NCBI GenBank assembly: GCA_007376345.1 | Contig: VMGA01000005.1 | Span: forward strand, 1 to 42,957 | DNA length: 42,957 bases | Direction: 5' to 3' | From: Microgenomates group bacterium Gr01-1014_16 | Lineage (GTDB): Bacteria; Patescibacteriota; Microgenomatia; CAZETR01; Amesbacteraceae | Shown here: positions 11,876 to 22,248 of the stretch, piece by piece | Layout of the letters: every line of letters starts with the position of its first letter | Numbering within the stretch: position 1 is the stretch's first letter | Position numbers and translations under genes: made by a program | Notes under the pieces: generated by a model | Seen by the model: only the letters and a program-made list of their open reading frames with translations | The model's database searches: none | Told to the model about the DNA's origin: nothing

Positions 11876-11896
11876 TTCACACCTACGAGGTGTGAA
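11876..11896. repeat. 9-bp inverted repeat at the RidA stop codon
   Basis: TTCACACCT (11876-11884) and its exact complement (11888-11896) flank ACG and cover the stop codon of the RidA gene. There is no T-run, so it is a repeat or a weak terminator. It resembles in style the 19-base palindrome at 41212-41230. Confidence 0.45.
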
Positions 11897-12278
11897 GGGT
11901 GAAAGCGGTTGCTTCTATTTCTACGTCAATTCCTTCAATTGGAGATGCCGCTTGAATTGAAATTTTTGCAGGCTCTTGCCCGCGGGTGAAATATTGTTTG
12001 TAAACTTCGTTAATCGCTGATCTATCTTTGGGATGTCTAAAATAAATAACTATTTTTACAATATCGTCCATGGAGCAGTGACAATGGGACAATAAATACT
12101 TTATATTCTCCATCGTTTTTATGGTTTGCTGCTTGATTTCGCCTGGAATAATTTCACCTGTTTTTAGGTCTGTTGACAGTTGACTGCTTAGAAATATGAA
12201 ATCCCCAGCTTTAACCACATGATTAAATCCCGTTGAAGATTTTTTTACGTCTGAAATATTGATTACCTGTTTGCTCAT
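11883..12278 (-). CDS. RidA/YjgF-family protein with the key arginine replaced
   Basis: A 131-residue RidA/YjgF/YER057c-family protein: FIFLSSQLSTDLKTGEIIPGEIKQQTIKTMENIKYLL, then the C-terminal EPAKISIQAASPIEGIDVEIEATAF. RidA proper deaminates reactive 2-iminoacids and needs an Arg in the 'PAR' motif (Arg105 in E. coli). Here the motif reads PAK, so imine deaminase activity is doubtful, and it may belong to one of the other Rid subfamilies. The stop codon lies inside a 9-bp inverted repeat. Confidence 0.8.
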   Translation of the reverse strand: MSKQVINISDVKKSSTGFNHVVKAGDFIFLSSQLSTDLKTGEIIPGEIKQQTIKTMENIKYLLSHCHCSMDDIVKIVIYFRHPKDRSAINEVYKQYFTRGQEPAKISIQAASPIEGIDVEIEATAFTLHTS

Positions 12279-12731: not shown

Positions 12732-12804
12732 TTGCTGTCAGTTTATCGCAAAACTCGAACCTCGTTCTGTCGCAGCTCAGGCTCGCTCCGCTCGCCTTCG
12801 CTTT
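12732..12804 (+). repeat. Left end of the element (attL-like), 73-bp repeat copy A
   Basis: This is identical, in inverted orientation, to 20481-20553 over all 73 bases, and begins with TTGCTG. Read on the plus strand it encodes the recombinase tail SVYRKTRTSF... ending in TGA at 12803-12805. This identifies it as the arm normally downstream of the recombinase gene. Confidence 0.85.
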
Positions 12805-13426: not shown

Positions 13427-15193
13427 GTGAACAAAAGTGAATCCAACCAAGAATATTCAGAACACTTGAGACATTCCTGTGCCCATCTTTTGGCCGCAGC
13501 TGTGATTGAACTCTGGCCGGGAACGTTAAGAACGATCGGTCCTGCAATTGAGAACGGTTTTTATTATGATTTTGATTTTGGAGATGTAAAAATCTCTGAA
13601 GAAGATTTCAAAAAAATAGAAGAAAAAATGCATGAGTTGGTCAAGAGCTGGAATGGATTTGAGAAAAACGAAGTAACAGAAAAGGGGGCTAAAGATGCTT
13701 ACATTGGTAATCAATATAAAATAGAATTAATCGAAGAATTCTCCAAGGAAAAACAAAAATTAACTTTCTACAAATCCGGAGCTTATTCCGATCTTTGTCG
13801 AGGTGGGCATATAGAAAACCCTTCAAAAGAACTCAAACATTTTAAATTATTATCAGTCGCTGGTGCTTATTGGCGAGGCAATGAGAAGAACAAAATGTTA
13901 ACAAGAATTTATGGGACAATTTTTTCAACTAAAGGTGATCTCTATAAATATCTTAAAAATCTTGAACTCGCCAAACTTCACGATCACAGAAAATTAGGAA
14001 AAGAATTGGAGCTTTTTGCGATCAGCGATGAGATAGGCCAAGGATTAGTATTATGGCTTCCAAAAGGAAATTTTATTAAAGAGGAAATCGAAAACTGGGC
14101 AAAGACCACTGAAACAGAGTGGGGTTATCAAAGGGTGACAACCCCAAACATTACTAAGTCAGGTCTTTATTTTACTTCGGGCCACTTGCCATATTACAAA
14201 GCAGATATGTATCCACCAATGACTCTAGATGATGGTGAAGAATATTATTTAAAACCCATGAATTGTCCTCATCATCATATGATTTATAAAAACCGACCCA
14301 GAAGTTACAAAGAATTACCACTTCGTTTAGCGGAGTATGGGACTTGTTATCGCTACGAAGCTTCGGGTGAGCTTTTCGGTCTAATGCGAGTCCGTGGGTT
14401 TGTACAAAACGATTCGCATATTTACTGCACACAAGGACAAGCAGTTGAAGAATTTGTTCAGGTTATGAAACTTCACGAATTTTATTACAAAAGTCTTGGA
14501 ATCAAAGATTATTACTTAGAATTAGCACTAAGAGACCCTGAAAATAAAAAGAAGTATCATGGGAATAAAGAAATGTGGGTGCTAGCCGAAAAATTAATGA
14601 GAGAGGCCGTAAAAAGAGTTGATATACCAATGGTAGAAAAGGCCGGAAGTGCAGCTTTTTATGGACCAAAAATTGACTTTATTATTAAGTCGTCTACTGG
14701 CAGAGAATTTGGCATATCAACAAATCAAATTGATCTTTTTATGGGCGATAGATTTGGACTTAAGTATGTCGACAAAGATGGGTTTGAAAAGACCCCTGTT
14801 ATAATCCACCGTGCACCTCTGGGATCACATGAGCGGTTTATTGGCTTCCTTATTGAACACTTCGGGGGGAATTTCCCAACCTGGCTAACCCCAGTTCAAG
14901 TAAAAGTTTTACCCATTACGGATAAACATCTACATTATGCTAAAAGTGTATCAGAAAAGCTAAAAGAAGCCGGAATCAGAGTCGAACTTGATGACAGAAA
15001 CGAACGTCTCCAAGCCAAAATTCGCGACGCACAAAAAGAAAAGGTGTCATATATGTTAATCTTGGGTGCTAAAGAAGTTGAAACAAAAACTGTCACAGTA
15101 AGGGCGAGGAGTGGTGAAGCCTACGGACCCTACTCAATTGAAACTTTTATTAGTAACATCTGTCAGGAAATTGCACAAAAAACAATCAATTAA
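13427..15193 (+). CDS. thrS: Threonyl-tRNA synthetase, bacterial type with editing domain, no TGS domain
   Basis: A 588-residue ThrRS that charges tRNA-Thr. The usual N-terminal TGS domain is absent. The editing domain is intact: His16-xxx-His20 (HSCAH) and Cys124/His128 (CRGGH). The catalytic core has the three zinc ligands Cys280 (MNCPHH), His331 (NDSHIYC) and His461 (IIHRAPLG). Motif 2 is at Arg309 (CYRYE) and motif 3 at Arg470 (SHERF), followed by an anticodon-binding domain (VELDDRNERLQAKIRDAQ). The start is GTG 13427, about nine bases after a -10-like GATAAT and without a ribosome site, so the mRNA may be leaderless. It heads the element's operon. Whether another thrS exists outside the window is unknown; if it does, this copy may confer resistance. 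Confidence 0.93.
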   Translation: MNKSESNQEYSEHLRHSCAHLLAAAVIELWPGTLRTIGPAIENGFYYDFDFGDVKISEEDFKKIEEKMHELVKSWNGFEKNEVTEKGAKDAYIGNQYKIELIEEFSKEKQKLTFYKSGAYSDLCRGGHIENPSKELKHFKLLSVAGAYWRGNEKNKMLTRIYGTIFSTKGDLYKYLKNLELAKLHDHRKLGKELELFAISDEIGQGLVLWLPKGNFIKEEIENWAKTTETEWGYQRVTTPNITKSGLYFTSGHLPYYKADMYPPMTLDDGEEYYLKPMNCPHHHMIYKNRPRSYKELPLRLAEYGTCYRYEASGELFGLMRVRGFVQNDSHIYCTQGQAVEEFVQVMKLHEFYYKSLGIKDYYLELALRDPENKKKYHGNKEMWVLAEKLMREAVKRVDIPMVEKAGSAAFYGPKIDFIIKSSTGREFGISTNQIDLFMGDRFGLKYVDKDGFEKTPVIIHRAPLGSHERFIGFLIEHFGGNFPTWLTPVQVKVLPITDKHLHYAKSVSEKLKEAGIRVELDDRNERLQAKIRDAQKEKVSYMLILGAKEVETKTVTVRARSGEAYGPYSIETFISNICQEIAQKTIN

Positions 15194-15226
15194 ATTTAGT
15201 AGAAAGAAAGTGATTTGCTTTTATTA

Positions 15227-15966
15227 ATGAATAAACTTAAAAAAATAATAAGAAATATTATAGACTCGATGGACTACAGAGCGGCTCCTTTTTCTGATAT
15301 GAAAATCATTGACGAAGAATTTGAGGAAATTTATGAAAAATGCAGAGAATATACTGTTTCGTCAAAAGTAAGCTTATATGCAACCTATAAAGCAATAAAA
15401 TATATTATAAAACAGGAATAACAGGTGACATTGTTGAATGTGGCATATGGAAAGGCGGAAGCATCATGGTAATGGCATATGCTTTAATTGAAGCGAATGA
15501 AAATTACAGAAAGATATGGCTATATGATACATTTAGTGGAATGACGAGACCGACTGAAGAAGATCGTTCAATTCCCGATGGAAAATCGGCCATTAATCGA
15601 TGGGGCAAAAATGGATTTGGAAATTGGGAGTCTCCGTCTTTAGAAGAGGTAAGGAGAAATATATTATCAACAGGTTATCCTAAAAAAAATTTTATTTTTA
15701 TCAAAGGAGATGTTCAAGAAACCATTCCAAAGAGTCGGCCTTCCAAAATCTCTTTATTAAGATTGGATACCGACTGGTATAGATCAACGAGGGATGAACT
15801 ACTGTACCTGTATCCAATACTCGTAAAACATGGGGTATTGATTATTGATGATTATGTCTACTGGATGGGAACAAAAAAAGCAGTTGATGAATATTTCTCA
15901 GAAAGGGCAATCTTGTTGAATAGGATCGATCGAACTAGTAGAATTGCGATTAAGATAGCAAATTAG
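15227..15966 (+). pseudogene. TylF/MycF-like O-methyltransferase broken by a one-base deletion
   Basis: The first part (ATG 15227 to stop at 15419-15421) ends YKAIKYIIKQE. Slipping back one base at the A4 run 15409-15412 continues the frame as ITGDIVECGIWKGGS, the SAM-binding motif I, and then runs to 15966 (MVMAYALIEANENYRKIWLYDTFSGM; LLRLDTDWYRSTRDELLYLYP; IDDYVYWMGTKKAVDEYF). Together these make a full-length TylF-family protein of about 247 residues, a family of Mg-dependent sugar or small-molecule O-methyltransferases. The break may be a sequencing error, a recent mutation or programmed -1 slippage. It lies 33 bases after thrS in the operon. Confidence 0.75.
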
Positions 15967-16013
15967 ATTTATTGTTTAATAAATCATGTATTTAATGGAG
16001 AGTCTATCAAACC

Positions 16014-17345
16014 ATGATGTATAAAAAAATTGTAATATTGGATTCAGTCATTATTTATCCCGAACACAGGGATCGATTAAATAAGATTGCCGAAGAAGTT
16101 GTGGAATACAATACTTGCGAAACTGAACAGGAGGTTTTGGATCGAGTTAGGGGCGCTGATTGTATTGTAAGCTGCTGGATAAATATTCCCAATAAAGTAA
16201 TTGATGAAAACCCTCAATTAAAAACAATTGCTTTTTGGACCCATGCGTTTGAACATCGAATCAATAGTGACTACGCTCTCAAACACCATATATATGTTCC
16301 TAGTATACCTGATTATGGGACAGATTCGGTTGCCGAATTAGTATTTATCGGTTTATTACAACTAAACAAAAAATTGTCAGATAATAGCCAATCGACAAAC
16401 AATACTAGGACTTTAGAAGAAGAAATAATGACAAATGTAAGTGATAATGTGAGAAAGTTTAACAAGAACTGGCAAGCCAACTTAACGGGATCGTGGGTTC
16501 ATGAATATATTAAATCTGGACATCTAAAAATTACTAGCCCAGATGAATTTCTTGAGGAAACATTAAAAGGATTGACAATTGGCCTGTTGGTGAATAACGA
16601 TTTAAGAGAAAATTTGCTCAAAATTGCTTCTAAAGGATTCCAGATGAATCCGATCTACAGTCTAGGCGATTTACCCCATTCATTGGATATTGCTTATAGA
16701 CCCATTGACAATCTTTTGAGGGAGAGCCACATTATCATTTATGATTCACAAACTATTAGTGAGGATTTGAAAGATAAAATCAATCAAGGTAAATACATAT
16801 CGACCGTTGATGTAGCCAATGTTAAAATAGCTGGGCAATCAATTTTTAAAAAAAGGCTCGGAATTATTGGATTGGGAAGAATTGGAAGTAGGGTGGCTCA
16901 AATCGCCAGTGAAGGATTTGATATGAGGGTGGCATATTATTCTCGAAAAAGAAATTTTGATTTGGAAAAAAGGTATAATCTGGAGTTCAAACCTTTGGAT
17001 GATTTATTAAGTGATTCAGATATTGTAACTTTTCATTTACCCCACGTTGGGGCTGAAGGTTTTGTTACAAGTAAAATGATCGATATGATTCCAAAAGGTA
17101 CAGTCGTAGTAAATGTTAGTGTCGGTAGTATTTTTGAAGATCAAGACTATCTATTAAATCGATTTCAAGAAGATGACCTGAGAGGATATTTAGATGTTTA
17201 CAAAACTCTCCCGCCAAGAATGAAATTGAGAGATCGTAAAGATTATTTAGTTGCAACATATCGATTGGGTTGGAGAACTAAATCTACAATCGGTCTAAAA
17301 ACTCATAAATTAATAACCCGATTAGAGGAGGGTTTAAATAAATAA
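16014..17345 (+). CDS. D-2-hydroxyacid-dehydrogenase-like protein with two Rossmann domains and no catalytic triad
   Basis: A 443-residue protein, about 110 longer than normal D-2-hydroxyacid dehydrogenases. Residues 1-120 match the substrate domain (ADCIVSCWINIP; DYGTDSVAELVFIGLL). Residues about 279-372 are the NAD domain with Gly286-x-Gly288-xx-Gly291 (GLGRIGSRVA). A second, degenerate copy of this domain lies before it at about 184-268: KIASKGFQM against QIASEGFDM, and RPIDNLLRESHI against KPLDDLLSDSDI. The catalytic Arg, Glu and His of the family are all replaced (VNVSVGSIFED; LDVYKTLPP; ATYRLGWRT). It probably binds NAD(P) but may not be a standard dehydrogenase. Confidence 0.7.
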   Translation: MMYKKIVILDSVIIYPEHRDRLNKIAEEVVEYNTCETEQEVLDRVRGADCIVSCWINIPNKVIDENPQLKTIAFWTHAFEHRINSDYALKHHIYVPSIPDYGTDSVAELVFIGLLQLNKKLSDNSQSTNNTRTLEEEIMTNVSDNVRKFNKNWQANLTGSWVHEYIKSGHLKITSPDEFLEETLKGLTIGLLVNNDLRENLLKIASKGFQMNPIYSLGDLPHSLDIAYRPIDNLLRESHIIIYDSQTISEDLKDKINQGKYISTVDVANVKIAGQSIFKKRLGIIGLGRIGSRVAQIASEGFDMRVAYYSRKRNFDLEKRYNLEFKPLDDLLSDSDIVTFHLPHVGAEGFVTSKMIDMIPKGTVVVNVSVGSIFEDQDYLLNRFQEDDLRGYLDVYKTLPPRMKLRDRKDYLVATYRLGWRTKSTIGLKTHKLITRLEEGLNK

Positions 17346-18064
17346 TGATAATTGAAAATGAGATAAACATTACCAATAATTCGGAAGAGTTTATACATAC
17401 AGCTCTTAGAAAGCCGCGAAGTATTATAGTATTACGCGGATCAATATCACCATCCGACAAAGAAATTTATACCTATTTAGACCAATTGGGAAGCCAGCAC
17501 CCTAGCCTTTATGGCAAGATCACCATTATTAAAAATGATCCAAGTATTAAAAATAGCACAGCCATGTCGCTAAATGCCCTTGTTCCTCACACGGATGGAG
17601 CCTTCATTGAAAATCCCCCATCGAGAACAATTCTAAGTTTTATAAATAGCGATCCAAAGGGAGGGGGGGCTAGTATATTTATTCCTCTGGGAAAAATCCT
17701 AGCAGACTTACCAAATTGGGCTATGGATGCCCTGACCAATGATTACTATCTGTTTCCACGAACTTATGATGGCAACCTTTCCGATTCATATACCGGCCCT
17801 GTACTAAACAAAGATCCGCAAGGTAATTTTAATATTCGTTGGCGCGCAGATAAATTTTATAGACCAAAGGTTGTGAAGAACAATGACACTAGAGGCGCAG
17901 AAGCGATTGATTGGCTATATACTTATATTGAAAAATGCAAACCCATTACATATGATGCCAAGTCTGGTGAAACCTTGTTAGTTCCAAATTCTGCAATGCT
18001 TCATGGCCGTACACCCTTATCTCCCAATTCCACGCGCGAAGTTTTACGTGTATGGATAGTATGA
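17345..18064 (+). CDS. TauD/clavaminate-synthase-like Fe(II)/2-oxoglutarate oxygenase
   Basis: A 239-residue protein of the TauD/TfdA-like fold. The iron ligands are visible as His82-x-Asp84 (PHTDGAF) and His220 (MLHGRTPL), and the 2-oxoglutarate-binding Arg is probably 231 or 235 (REVLRVWIV). The stretch PPSRTILSFINSDPKGGGASIF fits the family block after HxD. Such enzymes usually hydroxylate or desaturate amino acids or small metabolites. The start overlaps the stop of the preceding gene (TAATGA), so translation is coupled. It is slightly short for the family; substrate unknown. Confidence 0.75.
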   Translation: MIIENEINITNNSEEFIHTALRKPRSIIVLRGSISPSDKEIYTYLDQLGSQHPSLYGKITIIKNDPSIKNSTAMSLNALVPHTDGAFIENPPSRTILSFINSDPKGGGASIFIPLGKILADLPNWAMDALTNDYYLFPRTYDGNLSDSYTGPVLNKDPQGNFNIRWRADKFYRPKVVKNNDTRGAEAIDWLYTYIEKCKPITYDAKSGETLLVPNSAMLHGRTPLSPNSTREVLRVWIV

Positions 18065-18076
18065 TTCCACTTAGAT

Positions 18077-19540
18077 ATGAGTATATCCACACATCTAATC
18101 CAAAAAAATAATCCAAATTTAGATTTTTACATATTTGATGATTCAAATAATATCCCTATTAGAAAGTACGAATTTAAAAACGATCAGCAAAATTTACAGA
18201 CATGCTTAGTTGATGAGTTTTATCCCGAAAAAAGTTTACGTAAAATAAAAAATAATAAATTTAATCAATTTATTGAAGCGATGGGTTTTCAATGGGATAC
18301 ACTAACTGAACCTGGGCATATGCGATTGACGCCATACGCAAATGCGATAATGGAAGCAATTGAAAAATATAGTTGGTTACAAGTTACAAAAAATGCCAAA
18401 GAAGTTAATGTTCCCACAAGTAAAATAGGTGGTGGAGAATTATATGATCCCAATAGCTTAGATATTAAAAACGTCTTAAGGGATTTGTTTTCAGGAAACA
18501 CTGCTTATGGTTCAAACTATTACAATGTAAAAATTAACAATACGGTGGAATTTTTAAGATATAGCGCTTGTACACAAAAACTATCATTTGTTAAGACACT
18601 TAGTCTAGATTACAAAAATTTGCCATTCGGTTTATTTGAAATATCTAAAAGCTACAGATTTGAAGAAGAAAAAGAATTACAATTGTGCAATAGAGTTAGA
18701 AGTTTTCACCTACCGGAACTTCATATTATCACAGACAAAGTCTCATCTTCACTAAAGATAGGTTTAAAAATCCATCAAAGAATGGTTGCACAAATAAATA
18801 GTTTGGGAATGGATTTCGAAATACTGTGTAATGTCACCGATAGCTTCTTCAAGAAAAATCAAGCTTTTTTAAGCAGCTTTGCTAGTTTATTGGAAAAACC
18901 ATTTTTACTAACTGTTACTAAAGACAATGCTTCTGGAAAAGACGGTGTTGAGCTTGATGTGGAATATAAGGTGTTTGATTGCAATGGAACACCAATAGAA
19001 ATTTCTACATTTCAAGTAGACGATGGCTCATCTCCTTCTGCATTTGGAATAAGTTATAAATCGGATGAGAACACCGAAAAACTAGTTTCAACAATGCATA
19101 TTGTTTTCAATGCTTCTGTCGAACGTTTTGCATACGTTCTTTTAAATAATGCGTTTATAAATAAATCAAAGTTGCCATTTTGGGCATCTCCAATACAAAT
19201 AAGGGTTATCCCATTTGATAAAAATTCTTTGCATGAGGCAACGAAACTGACTGAAGAAATGGACTCAATGAACATTAGGTCTGAATTGGACGATAGAGAT
19301 ATAAGCTATACGACTAAAAATGCCGATGAAGAATTAGCCTGGATACCGTACGCAATAACGGTTAAAATAAATAACAATCAATTGCAATTTGTTATGATAT
19401 ATTGCAGCAAAGGTGAGATTATTGAGAAAATTATAAAAAAGGATGATTTAATGAGAGAGCTGAGAACAAAACTTAATGGAGAAATTAATATACCAAGATA
19501 TTTTCCTATTAATTTATCTAGCAAGATAGAATTTAAATAA
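18077..19540 (+). CDS. Archaeal-type threonyl-tRNA synthetase paralog without editing domain
   Basis: A 487-residue class II synthetase whose core resembles archaeal rather than bacterial ThrRS: LRYSACTQKLSFVKTL, DYKNLPFGLFEISKSYRFE, RVRSFHLPELHII, STFQVDDG and MHIVFNASVERFA. The three zinc/threonine ligands are kept (Cys165, His216, His341), as are motif 2 Arg194 and motif 3 Arg350. Both known editing domains are missing; residues 1-75 are unrecognised. The C-terminal anticodon-binding fold is present (SELDDRDISYTTKNADEELAWIPYAITV), but the usual basic KKIREAE-type helix is replaced by a neutral/acidic one. It may still activate threonine, while tRNA recognition is doubtful. It lies 12 bases after the oxygenase and overlaps the SDR gene. 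Confidence 0.75.
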   Translation: MSISTHLIQKNNPNLDFYIFDDSNNIPIRKYEFKNDQQNLQTCLVDEFYPEKSLRKIKNNKFNQFIEAMGFQWDTLTEPGHMRLTPYANAIMEAIEKYSWLQVTKNAKEVNVPTSKIGGGELYDPNSLDIKNVLRDLFSGNTAYGSNYYNVKINNTVEFLRYSACTQKLSFVKTLSLDYKNLPFGLFEISKSYRFEEEKELQLCNRVRSFHLPELHIITDKVSSSLKIGLKIHQRMVAQINSLGMDFEILCNVTDSFFKKNQAFLSSFASLLEKPFLLTVTKDNASGKDGVELDVEYKVFDCNGTPIEISTFQVDDGSSPSAFGISYKSDENTEKLVSTMHIVFNASVERFAYVLLNNAFINKSKLPFWASPIQIRVIPFDKNSLHEATKLTEEMDSMNIRSELDDRDISYTTKNADEELAWIPYAITVKINNNQLQFVMIYCSKGEIIEKIIKKDDLMRELRTKLNGEINIPRYFPINLSSKIEFK

Positions 19541-20277
19541 TGAAACTTGAAAATAAAGTAGCAATTGTGACAGGGTCTTCTCGTGGTATTGGGAGAGCTA
19601 CGGCTATCCTTTTTGCAAAAGAGGGGGCCAAGGTTGTAATCAACGGTGTGCGTCAAACCGAAGTGGGAGAAACAGTTGTTAGGGATATTGGCAATGATAG
19701 GGCTGTTTATATTCGTGCGGATGTATCCAAAGAAGATGAGGTCAAGCGTTTGGTATCAGAAACTGTAAAAAAATTTGGTAAGATCGATATCCTTATTAAT
19801 AATGCTGGAGTAATTATCGACAGACAGGGCTGGAAATCAGATATCGACAGTTGGCAAAGCACTATTGATTCCAATTTAACTAGCGCTTGGTTAATGACTA
19901 AAGAAGTTTCGTCAATAATGTTTAAAAGCGGTGGGGGATCAATTGTCAACATCAGTTCAATTTATGGTTTCTTGGGCGCAGCCTCTGTAATATCGTATTC
20001 CTCCGCCAAAGGTGGACTTATTACTATGACAAAAGCACTTGCAAAAGAACTGGCACCCAGCATTCGCGTAAATGCAATTGCTCCTGGAAATGTTATGACT
20101 GATATGACAATGGAGGCAGGTCAAAAAGTGATAGATTATTTTAATACCCAAGTGCCACTTAAACGAAGCGCAGAGCCAGACGAGATAGCGAAAGCGGTAT
20201 TGTTTTTGGCTTCTGAAGATGCGAGCTATATTACTGGAGAAATTTTGGTAATAGATGGCGGATATAGCCTTAGGTGA
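19540..20277 (+). CDS. Short-chain dehydrogenase/reductase, FabG-like
   Basis: A 245-residue classical SDR. The cofactor motif is TGSSRGIG (11-18), followed by NNAG (87-90). The catalytic Ser140-Tyr153-Lys157 lie in NISSIYG and YSSAKGG, and the C-terminal SEDASYITGEILVIDGGY is typical. Ser13-Arg15 after the first glycine favours NADPH. In the operon it probably reduces a keto intermediate or oxidises an alcohol; use in fatty acid synthesis is unlikely, since no other fab gene is nearby. The start overlaps the ThrRS-like stop (TAATGA). Confidence 0.88.
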   Translation: MKLENKVAIVTGSSRGIGRATAILFAKEGAKVVINGVRQTEVGETVVRDIGNDRAVYIRADVSKEDEVKRLVSETVKKFGKIDILINNAGVIIDRQGWKSDIDSWQSTIDSNLTSAWLMTKEVSSIMFKSGGGSIVNISSIYGFLGAASVISYSSAKGGLITMTKALAKELAPSIRVNAIAPGNVMTDMTMEAGQKVIDYFNTQVPLKRSAEPDEIAKAVLFLASEDASYITGEILVIDGGYSLR

Positions 20278-20480: not shown

Positions 20481-20643
20481 AAAGCGAAGGCGAGCGGAGC
20501 GAGCCTGAGCTGCGACAGAACGAGGTTCGAGTTTTGCGATAAACTGACAGCAAGGTTCGAGTGGAGGGGCGCGAAAGCGCACCGACACCAAACTCAGAAA
20601 GCGGTTTCCAGCCTTCTTTTACGTACTCGCAGGTGAGTTGACG
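20481..20643 (-). repeat. Inverted, intact attachment-site-like block (copies B and C)
   Basis: Bases 20481-20553 are an exact inverted copy of 12732-12804 (73 bp), and 20548-20643 an exact inverted copy of 22085-22180 (96 bp). The two share only CAGCAA at 20548-20553. On the minus strand the block reads as an uninterrupted recombinase C-terminus: RQLTCEYVKEGWKPLSEF, then TLLSVYRKTRTSF, ending SPSL with TAA at 20478-20480. It is thus an unrecombined junction of the two element ends. Upstream of the 96-bp identity the sequence is only loosely similar to the present recombinase gene, so it may derive from a related element. Confidence 0.8.
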
Positions 20644-20686
20644 GGCAACAAGAAAGAAGAAGTAAATCGCAAAAATTTTAAAAACC

Positions 20687-22189
20687 ATGAAATATATAGG
20701 CTACTGCAGAAAATCAACAGATGAACCAGACAGACAAATACTTTCCATTGAGGCGCAGGTTGCCGAGTTAAAAGAATTCGCCGCAAAAGAAAAATTAGAG
20801 ATTGTAGATTTTATTTTAGAGAGCAAAACCGCTAAAGAACCTGGCCGACAAAAGTTTGCCGAAGTAATTAGATTATTAGAATCAGGTGTTGCAGATGGAA
20901 TTCTCTCCTGGCATCCCGACAGACTTGCAAGAAATTCTATTGATGGAGGCAGGATTATTTATTTACTTGATACAGGCAAACTTTTAGATCTCAAATTTCC
21001 CTCTTTTTGGTTTGATAATACTCCCCAGGGAAAATTCATGTTAAATATGGCATTTGGCCAGAGCAAATATTATATTGATAGTCTTTCCGTAAATGTTAAA
21101 CGTGGTAATCGTCAAAAACTTCGCCGTGGCGAGTGGCCAAATAAAGCTCCGTTTGGTTATCTGAATGATATGAGTACTAAAACTATTCAGGTGGATAAAA
21201 AGAGGGCAAAATTTGTTCGACAGGCTTTTGAGATGTACGCAACAGGCGGTTTTATGCAAATTGATATCAGGGAATTCTTTACTAAAAATAAAATCTTCAA
21301 TAAAACCGGACATACAGTTCATGTCAATAAAATTAAACATATGCTTTCAGACCCTTTTTATTACGGCGTTATGAATTTTTGCGGCGAATTATATGAAGGA
21401 AGTCATAAACCATTAATTACCAAGAAACTTTTTGACAAAGTCCAGGAAGTAGTTAGAAGAAAAAGTAAAACTCACTATAGCCATACCCCCGAATTTGATT
21501 TTCTTGGACTTGTTAAATGCGGAGAGTGCGGCGGTTCAATCACGGCAGAAAAACACGTCAGATTTTATCCAACAAAAAACAGAACCGCCGTCTTTATTTA
21601 CTACCGCTGTTCCAAAAAGTTTGGCCCTTGTTCCCAAAGATATACTACAGGCCTCGAAATGGAAGAAAAAATGAGAGTGGCGATTAAAAATGCTTCCATT
21701 TCAAATTATGTTGCCAAAAAGTTTCTTGAATGGGCAGAAACGGATTCCCAAAAAGAAAATCTGGAATCATCAGATAAAGTCGGTATTTTAACTCGGCAAC
21801 TAAAAGAGGCAGAAGAAAAACTGGACAGGCTACTGGAAGCCTACTTGGACAAAGTAATTGAGGAAACTGAATACAAGGCAAAGAAAAATGAATTATTAGA
21901 AAACAAACTATCGCTTCAGGCAGAGATCAAGGAAATAACAGAAAAGGGCAATGAATGGCTCGAACCTTTTTCTGAATTCGTAAAAACGGCTGAAACAGGG
22001 GCAAAAACGGCGCGCGCAAAAAATAATTTGCATGAACTTTCAGTTCAAGCAAGAACTGTCGGCTCGAACTTCTTTTTGAAGGATCGTCAACTCACCTGCG
22101 AGTACGTAAAAGAAGGCTGGAAACCGCTTTCTGAGTTTGGTGTCGGTGCGCTTTCGCGCCCCTCCACTCGAACCTTGCTGGGGGACTAG
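20687..22189 (+). CDS. Large serine recombinase (integrase of the element)
   Basis: A 500-residue large serine recombinase that would integrate and excise the element. The N-terminal resolvase domain has the nucleophile Ser10 (YCRKSTDEP) and HPDRLARNSIDGGRI. The recombinase domain follows (KAPFGYLND near 155). Next come a zinc ribbon (CGECGGS...YYRCSKKFGPC), a Glu/Lys-rich coiled coil (about 365-430) and a tail. The last 35 residues are encoded in the right end repeat, and the final GD and stop come from the tRNA-Gln gene, which it overlaps by 12 bases. Integration therefore exchanged the C-terminus. Upstream lies the inverted attachment-site copy. Confidence 0.92.
   Translation: MKYIGYCRKSTDEPDRQILSIEAQVAELKEFAAKEKLEIVDFILESKTAKEPGRQKFAEVIRLLESGVADGILSWHPDRLARNSIDGGRIIYLLDTGKLLDLKFPSFWFDNTPQGKFMLNMAFGQSKYYIDSLSVNVKRGNRQKLRRGEWPNKAPFGYLNDMSTKTIQVDKKRAKFVRQAFEMYATGGFMQIDIREFFTKNKIFNKTGHTVHVNKIKHMLSDPFYYGVMNFCGELYEGSHKPLITKKLFDKVQEVVRRKSKTHYSHTPEFDFLGLVKCGECGGSITAEKHVRFYPTKNRTAVFIYYRCSKKFGPCSQRYTTGLEMEEKMRVAIKNASISNYVAKKFLEWAETDSQKENLESSDKVGILTRQLKEAEEKLDRLLEAYLDKVIEETEYKAKKNELLENKLSLQAEIKEITEKGNEWLEPFSEFVKTAETGAKTARAKNNLHELSVQARTVGSNFFLKDRQLTCEYVKEGWKPLSEFGVGALSRPSTRTLLGD
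22085..22180 (+). repeat. Right end of the element (attR-like), 96-bp repeat copy D
   Basis: Identical to the inverted block 20548-20643. It encodes the recombinase C-terminus from RQLTCEY to TLL and ends with TTGCTG, whose last two bases enter the tRNA-Gln acceptor end. From 22181 on, the sequence is tRNA rather than the 73-bp arm found at the other junctions. Confidence 0.85.
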
Positions 22190-22248
22190 GATTCGAACCT
22201 AGATTGACAGATTCAGAGTCTGTATGCCTACCATTAGCAGATCCCCCA
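22178..22248 (-). tRNA. tRNA-Gln (anticodon CUG)
   Basis: Read on the minus strand, all arms fold. The acceptor TGGGGGA/TCCCCCA has the U1-A72 pair typical of tRNA-Gln. The D arm is TGCT/GGCA with loop AATGGTA. The anticodon stem is ACAGA/TCTGT with loop CTCTGAA (anticodon CUG), and the T arm is CTAGG-TTCGAAT-CCTAG. The discriminator is G, as in tRNA-Gln. CCA is not encoded (GCAA follows). The 3' end is the integration site of the serine-recombinase element, which leaves the tRNA complete. Confidence 0.92.

Follow-up and report, generated by a model that had tools for sequence, protein, structure and literature searches.

A threonyl-tRNA synthetase gene, a diverged synthetase paralog and a set of tailoring-type enzymes in a mobile operon of a Microgenomates bacterium

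Why would a mobile element carry genes for a threonyl-tRNA synthetase (ThrRS) and a diverged ThrRS paralog together with four tailoring-type enzymes? The question is raised by contig VMGA01000005.1 of Microgenomates group bacterium Gr01-1014_16 (assembly GCA_007376345.1), whose positions 1 to 42,957 were analyzed and are referred to as the window; the operon lies at 13427-20277, within an element of about 9.4 kb. Three of its genes, coding for a diverged ThrRS-like paralog, a dehydrogenase-like protein and a short-chain dehydrogenase/reductase (SDR), recur together in another order in a second genome, and it follows that their arrangement is not due to chance. Our tentative answer is that the element represents a biosynthetic cassette, spread by horizontal transfer, of Patescibacteria-like bacteria of the candidate phyla radiation (CPR).

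All six genes of the operon are located on the plus strand. Their families and two TAATGA overlaps, as named by an earlier sequence-only reading of this DNA, were borne out by the coordinates, by Pfam/NCBIfam matches and by reading both overlaps. The first gene, thrS-A (13427..15193), encodes a complete bacterial-type ThrRS of 588 amino acids without a TGS domain (TIGR00418, 662 bits at a cut-off of 383.65), hereafter A. Downstream are a TylF-family (macrocin O-methyltransferase-like) gene (15227..15966; PF05711, E=3e-23 on the listed open reading frame (ORF)), a gene for a double-Rossmann D-2-hydroxyacid-dehydrogenase-like protein of 443 amino acids (16014..17345; PF02826/PF00389, 2-Hacid_dh/2-Hacid_dh_C) and a gene for a TauD-type Fe(II)/2-oxoglutarate oxygenase of 239 amino acids (17345..18064; PF02668, E=2e-15), in which the HxD motif, the distal His and the Arg are all present in an alignment to glutarate hydroxylase. 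The fifth gene (18077..19540) codes for the 487-amino-acid ThrRS-like paralog, hereafter B, which consists of archaeal-type catalytic and anticodon-like domains (tRNA-synt_2b/HGTP_anticodon) and has no editing domain. The last gene (19540..20277) encodes an SDR oxidoreductase of 245 amino acids with Ser-Tyr-Lys and glycine-rich motifs (PF13561, E=1e-64). The stop codon of the dehydrogenase-like gene overlaps the TauD start at ~17343-17348, and that of B overlaps the SDR start at ~19538-19543.

While the set of six genes stands, two of its members need qualification. The dehydrogenase-like protein lacks catalytic residues (see below), and the TylF gene, whose true start is at 15227, 33 nt past thrS-A, contains a one-base frameshift in a run of A near 15411-15415, so that its first 64 codons are in a different frame. 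The C-terminal part is open from 15421, and the ORF list holds only the C-terminal ORF 15466-15966. The frameshift is either an assembly error or the mark of a broken gene.

The two synthetases and the dehydrogenase-like protein

The host genome (1.03 Mb in 69 contigs, ca. 95% complete) contains another full-length thrS on contig 56, beside infC, pheS and pheT, which is the classical context of a housekeeping thrS. The operon ThrRS is therefore a second copy and not, as the sequence-only reading had left possible, the only one. A and the host ThrRS share 49.5% identity. In a maximum-likelihood tree, A groups with ThrRSs of a CPR family (f51; support 90/98) and not with the host protein, which indicates that A was probably acquired from another lineage; a local duplication of the host thrS is ruled out by the same identity value and tree position. 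The f51-group ThrRS of one genome, G187, is a housekeeping gene with infC, rpmI and rplT as neighbours. Residue tables show that the catalytic, zinc, ATP, threonine and anticodon residues are all kept in A, which thus looks like a functional second ThrRS. We also considered a resistance signature at four unusual positions of A, Ser481, Asn483, Phe488 and Met489, and rejected it, since the same residues occur in the G187 housekeeping ThrRS (IST-NQ-DLFM), in the nearest clade. The odd active-site residues are thus mostly lineage-typical and provide no evidence for drug resistance. Tyr462 and Gly463, which we take to be the obafluorin site of ThrRS, are unchanged in A.

B is a very different protein. 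It scores below the curated thrS cut-offs (138.6 vs 383.65 for TIGR00418 and 284 vs 484 for PRK03991), and its match to PRK03991, the archaeal ThrRS model, begins at profile position 148, just past the editing domain. In the tree, window B and its counterpart from bacterium BMS3Abin15, described below, form one very long separate branch (100/100). The two proteins were aligned with E. coli ThrRS, whose numbering is used here; the alignment is uncertain near Tyr462 owing to gaps. Both retain the ATP residues of motifs 2 and 3 (Arg363, Glu365, Arg375, Phe379 and Arg520). The zinc ligands Cys334/His385/His511 are Cys, His and His in the window protein and Cys, Asp and His in that of BMS3Abin15. 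In the amino-acid pocket, Asp383, the residue with which ThrRS checks the hydroxyl of threonine, is replaced by Glu in both proteins, Gln381 by Leu/Ile and Gln479 by Glu. The anticodon determinants are lost: Arg609, Glu600 and the Arg583 region read Tyr/Glu, Asn/Asp and Ala/Lys in the two proteins. Judged by these residues, B may have kept the ability to form an aminoacyl adenylate but would no longer read tRNA-Thr.

The dehydrogenase-like protein has an intact NAD motif, GLGRIG. Compared with glyoxylate reductase (2dbq), its catalytic Arg/Glu/His are replaced by Val/Lys/Arg (IARG to VSVG, DVFEEEP to DVYKTLP and TPHIG to TYRLG), and the catalytic residues are altered likewise in the homologues from BMS3Abin15 and from another genome, G731. 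It also has an extra insert of ~130-150 residues, which looks like a second Rossmann unit in degenerate form. The window protein is 73% identical to its BMS3Abin15 counterpart and 35% identical to that of G731, and FWTHxxEHRIN, IPDYGTD and YRxGW are invariant across the three. By these patterns the protein is evidently under selection but is predicted to be unable to use the standard mechanism. That 73% of its residues match those of the homologue in a distant genome, despite the loss of the catalytic triad, points to an as yet unknown chemistry.

Related clusters and their tRNA-Cys genes

Short peptides of window B, used as queries against 84,980 species genomes, retrieved one true relative, in bacterium BMS3Abin15; with such queries, more distant members may have been missed. 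There, genes for an SDR, a ThrRS (A'), B, tRNA-Cys, the dehydrogenase-like protein and a radical S-adenosylmethionine (SAM)/SPASM protein follow each other on one strand. Identity to the window proteins is 42% for B, 73% for the dehydrogenase-like protein and 74% for the SDR. A' (513 amino acids) is an archaeal-type ThrRS without editing domain, and BMS3Abin15 also holds a normal housekeeping thrS elsewhere. Compared with the window, the genes are ordered differently, TauD and TylF are lacking, and the place of A is taken by a ThrRS that is not its orthologue. That the genes recur in another order speaks for a functional link between them and against recent shared ancestry as the sole cause. 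The filling of the A slot by non-orthologous ThrRSs, bacterial in one case and archaeal-type in the other, argues for a need for additional ThrRS activity. The conserved unit is the B-dehydrogenase-SDR set with an extra ThrRS, and TauD and TylF are outside this conserved core. The sequence-only reading would have been refuted if no other genome kept the genes together; in BMS3Abin15, B, the dehydrogenase-like protein and the SDR do occur together, with an extra ThrRS.

The set is very rare. Matches to B and TauD were confined to the window among 380 phylum-wide genomes, and so were matches to the dehydrogenase-like protein among 374 class-wide genomes. When the class to which BMS3Abin15 belongs was searched, a third locus came to light, in G731, where the dehydrogenase gene is followed by tRNA-Cys and then by a gene for a methyltransferase-SDR fusion; the contig begins 137 bp upstream of the dehydrogenase gene. 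In the fusion protein (L047:1721-3247), the methyltransferase part is SAM-dependent and the other part is SDR-like. A profile search added a contig-end fragment in G002. The relatives are mostly metagenome bins, and the loci in G731 and G002 are located at contig ends. No further members were found in IMG/VR, and scans of plasmids and phages returned only ordinary ThrRSs for B, partial matches for the dehydrogenase-like protein and none for TauD. In one more genome, G215, the end of a contig (L030:242-3669) holds the gene for an editing-less archaeal-type ThrRS-like protein, with its zinc Cys replaced by Asp, immediately ahead of the gene for a bacterial ThrRS; the neighbours of this pair are unrelated, and its kinship with the window cluster is not supported.

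The tRNA-Cys(GCA) genes of the two related clusters (L034:11444-11516 in BMS3Abin15 and L047:1631-1704 in G731) are second copies, since each genome has another tRNA-Cys next to tRNA-Leu(TAA). In BMS3Abin15, the cluster copy is separated by 6 nt from the B stop codon and by 28 nt from the dehydrogenase gene that follows; in G731, it is separated by 5 nt from the preceding dehydrogenase gene and by 17 nt from the next gene. Both have the same 13-nt anticodon arm, AGCTTGCAGAGCT, which includes G37; the housekeeping tRNA-Cys have A37. By the pattern used, just one of the 177 genomes sampled has another G37 tRNA-Cys. The CPR genome G122 carries a tRNA of this type (L071:1489-1562), with no such cluster near it in the stretch seen. 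Since both cluster tRNAs keep U73 and the GCA anticodon, they could be charged by cysteinyl-tRNA synthetase (CysRS). B and the tRNA-Cys are found together in one genome only, BMS3Abin15. A37- and G37-type tRNA-Cys, as well as operons that contain tRNA-Cys, are known from SepRS/SepCysS systems, including those of Parcubacteria (PMC5424206). Within this genome the search for SepRS and SepCysS covered the proteins of the element, among which Pfam/NCBIfam showed neither; the related clusters lack both as well.

Possible functions of the operon

Though we would not call it probable, the reading that we favour is a mobile biosynthetic cassette with divided tasks: amino-acid activation by B, redox steps by the dehydrogenase-like protein and the SDR, tailoring of the product by TauD and TylF, and protection or Thr-tRNA supply by A. 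B would activate its substrate with ATP, no longer reading the tRNA-Thr anticodon, and would transfer a polar amino acid to a small molecule, to a carrier or to a tRNA that has no part in translation, in BMS3Abin15 perhaps the neighbouring tRNA-Cys. After the redox steps, the window product would be hydroxylated by TauD and O-methylated by TylF; in BMS3Abin15 the radical SAM enzyme would have an accessory role. A would maintain the level of Thr-tRNA, either against inhibition of the host ThrRS by the product or by intermediates of B, or against a drain on Thr-tRNA by the pathway itself. We infer the activity of B from its residues, and the substrate and the product of the pathway are likewise inferences. 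The sequence-only reading had divided the labour in the same way, with the canonical ThrRS as supply or immunity and B as the activating enzyme, which fits the residue analysis; its inference of a threonine-derived product finds no such support: the pocket of B is altered, and the two relatives carry tRNA-Cys, not tRNA-Thr. CPR bacteria are generally regarded as having little secondary metabolism. If the role proposed here is true, a ThrRS-derived activating enzyme would operate within a biosynthetic operon.

Several observations weigh against this cassette. The TylF gene is broken in this assembly. B was not detected in G731, despite the presence of the dehydrogenase gene and tRNA-Cys there. 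In BMS3Abin15 B, the change of His385 to Asp makes zinc binding, and hence activity, uncertain. The window operon has no tRNA gene: with relaxed settings for ARAGORN and with E<=10 for Rfam, all that appeared besides the tRNA-Gln was noise. No carrier, nonribosomal peptide synthetase, transporter or known warhead gene is present in the element, transporters not having been searched for in the rest of the genome. AlphaFold models of B (pLDDT 34) and of the dehydrogenase-like protein (pLDDT 37) were too poor and were discarded. A separate idea, a precursor of a ribosomally synthesized and post-translationally modified peptide near the window operon or the radical SAM gene of BMS3Abin15, was rejected, as no small ORF there was convincing.

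A bolder form of the cassette, which we regard as doubtful, would have the ThrRS-derived synthetase load its amino acid on a non-translational tRNA, the second tRNA-Cys of the relatives, as carrier; the rewired dehydrogenase homologue, the SDR and a radical SAM enzyme or oxygenase would then build a new amino-acid-derived compound or a genetically encoded residue, and the operon would represent a new class of mobile cassette in CPR bacteria. With a second tRNA-Cys at hand in two relatives, the idea of a tRNA-dependent pathway, or even of a synthetase-tRNA pair so far overlooked, is open to direct test.

Among the alternatives, the one that survives best, although it is unlikely, is that the synthetases are stress or resistance isoforms: A would stand in for the host ThrRS under a borrelidin- or obafluorin-like inhibitor or under zinc shortage, B would be a decoy or a regulator similar to HisZ, and the tailoring enzymes would detoxify the inhibitor. 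A ThrRS duplicate serves Anabaena under low-zinc stress and HisZ-type paralogs are regulatory (PMC9437257), and A itself looks fully functional and probably has its origin in another lineage. However, the pocket residues of A are mostly lineage-typical and not resistance-specific, the ATP-site residues are kept in B, the conserved dehydrogenase-SDR-B set is left unexplained, and PADLOC found no anti-phage defence match. Distinctly unlikely is a cassette for genetic-code or tRNA-bound chemistry, similar to that for pyrrolysine, in which B would charge a dedicated tRNA, tRNA-Cys(GCA) in the case of BMS3Abin15. The dehydrogenase-like protein, the SDR and a radical SAM enzyme or oxygenase would make or modify the non-standard amino acid that it receives. 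BMS3Abin15 does have a class II synthetase paralog, a tRNA, a Rossmann dehydrogenase and a radical SAM gene side by side, and its tRNA is a second tRNA-Cys of the rare G37 type. Yet a GCA anticodon would compete with cysteine, the tRNA has normal Cys identity (U73, GCA) and could be charged by CysRS, and in the window the operon lacks a tRNA and B has no clear anticodon determinants.

We find it quite improbable that the operon decorates a surface glycan or lipid, with TylF, SDR and the dehydrogenase-like protein acting on a sugar to which B, or Thr-tRNA from A, adds an amino acid: TylF belongs to a family of sugar O-methyltransferases and a glycosyltransferase-like gene is present downstream of the G731 cluster, but neither the window element nor the BMS3Abin15 cluster has a glycosyltransferase, flippase or aminoacyl-tRNA transferase. 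Random, partly broken cargo of a degrading island, without joint function, would account for the TylF frameshift, the very rare distribution and the low GC content of the cargo (36%, as against 42-47% in the flanks), but is very improbable given the tight operon with stops overlapping starts and the recurrence of the same three genes, reordered, two of them at 73-74% identity.

Parts of the favoured cassette have precedents. ObaO is a ThrRS immunity copy (PMC9854587), and the window resembles the obafluorin and borrelidin systems (ObaO/BorO) in having a second complete ThrRS beside tailoring enzymes; it differs in the lack of obafluorin or borrelidin biosynthetic genes and of an identified resistance-type substitution, and in its additional diverged ThrRS paralog. 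Synthetase-like enzymes act in natural-product pathways in the case of SbzA and AcmF (PMC12945691), which, like MshC and VlmL, are synthetase paralogs within small biosynthetic gene sets. These derive, however, from isoleucyl-, alanyl-, cysteinyl- and seryl-tRNA synthetases; no ThrRS-derived one was found described, and the relatives of the window carry a second tRNA-Cys. Like the pyrrolysine cassette (pylTSBCD), BMS3Abin15 groups a class II synthetase, a tRNA, a Rossmann dehydrogenase and a radical SAM protein, but its tRNA is Cys(GCA) and no stop suppressor, the protein families are different, and the window copy has no tRNA. With SepRS/SepCysS, also known in Parcubacteria (PMC5424206), it shares tRNA-Cys genes in operons and the G37 type of tRNA-Cys next to a class II synthetase; the window and related clusters lack SepRS and the PLP-dependent SepCysS. 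For azetidine-carboxylate, clusters have been described (azeJ; PMC11794875) that are rare and mobile and occur also in CPR bacteria. These too combine a tRNA-ligase gene with a SAM-dependent enzyme and recombinases, but their tRNA-ligase is of class I. The statement of the sequence-only reading that no system with this gene set is described agrees with the open-access literature searched, which does not prove absence.

The mobile element

The operon lies, together with a recombinase gene that ends there, at the 3' end of a tRNA-Gln. The large serine recombinase/integrase (20687..22189, plus strand) matches PF00239, PF07508 and PF13408 (Resolvase, Recombinase and zinc-ribbon) and phrog_95 integrase (E=2e-70); the insertion target, tRNA-Gln(CTG), was located by ARAGORN and Rfam at 22177..22248 on the minus strand. 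Three att-like junctions share the core CAGCA. At the left end (12733..12737, minus strand), CTGACAGCA is followed by AAAATGAAATCG of a chromosomal gene X, reading CTGACAGCA/AAAATG; the 73-nt arm of this junction is identical to 20481-20553. At the right end (22176..22180, minus strand), the tRNA-Gln sequence CCCCCAGCA is followed by AGGTTCGAGTGG, reading CCCCCAGCA/AGGTTCG. The internal junction (20548..20552, plus strand), inverted relative to these two, has CTGACAGCA followed by AGGTTCGAGTGG and reads CTGACAGCA/AGGTTCG. It thus combines the left half of the 12733 junction with the right half of the 22176 junction, as expected for attP, with the left and right ends as attR and attL, respectively. 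From this, attB is deduced to be tRNA-Gln CCCCCAGCA/AAAATG. The recombinase and the three junctions support the description of the operon as mobile in the sequence-only reading. An empty att site was not seen in relatives, as the flanking gene is absent from those examined.

Two inverted-repeat families (12732-12804, 20481-20659 and 22069-22180) meet in the attP-like site. Since this site is inverted, the operon and the recombinase are each bounded by inverted repeats, a layout that could reflect either segments able to invert or an error in the assembly. In BMS3Abin15, the cluster is flanked by direct duplications (L034:7040-7503 and 14260-14519; 201 nt at 84% and 55 nt at 93%) that start at a tRNA-Pro, which suggests that an insertion took place there too. 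Just beyond the window element, on the opposite strand, is a gene for a RidA-family imine deaminase (11883-12278).

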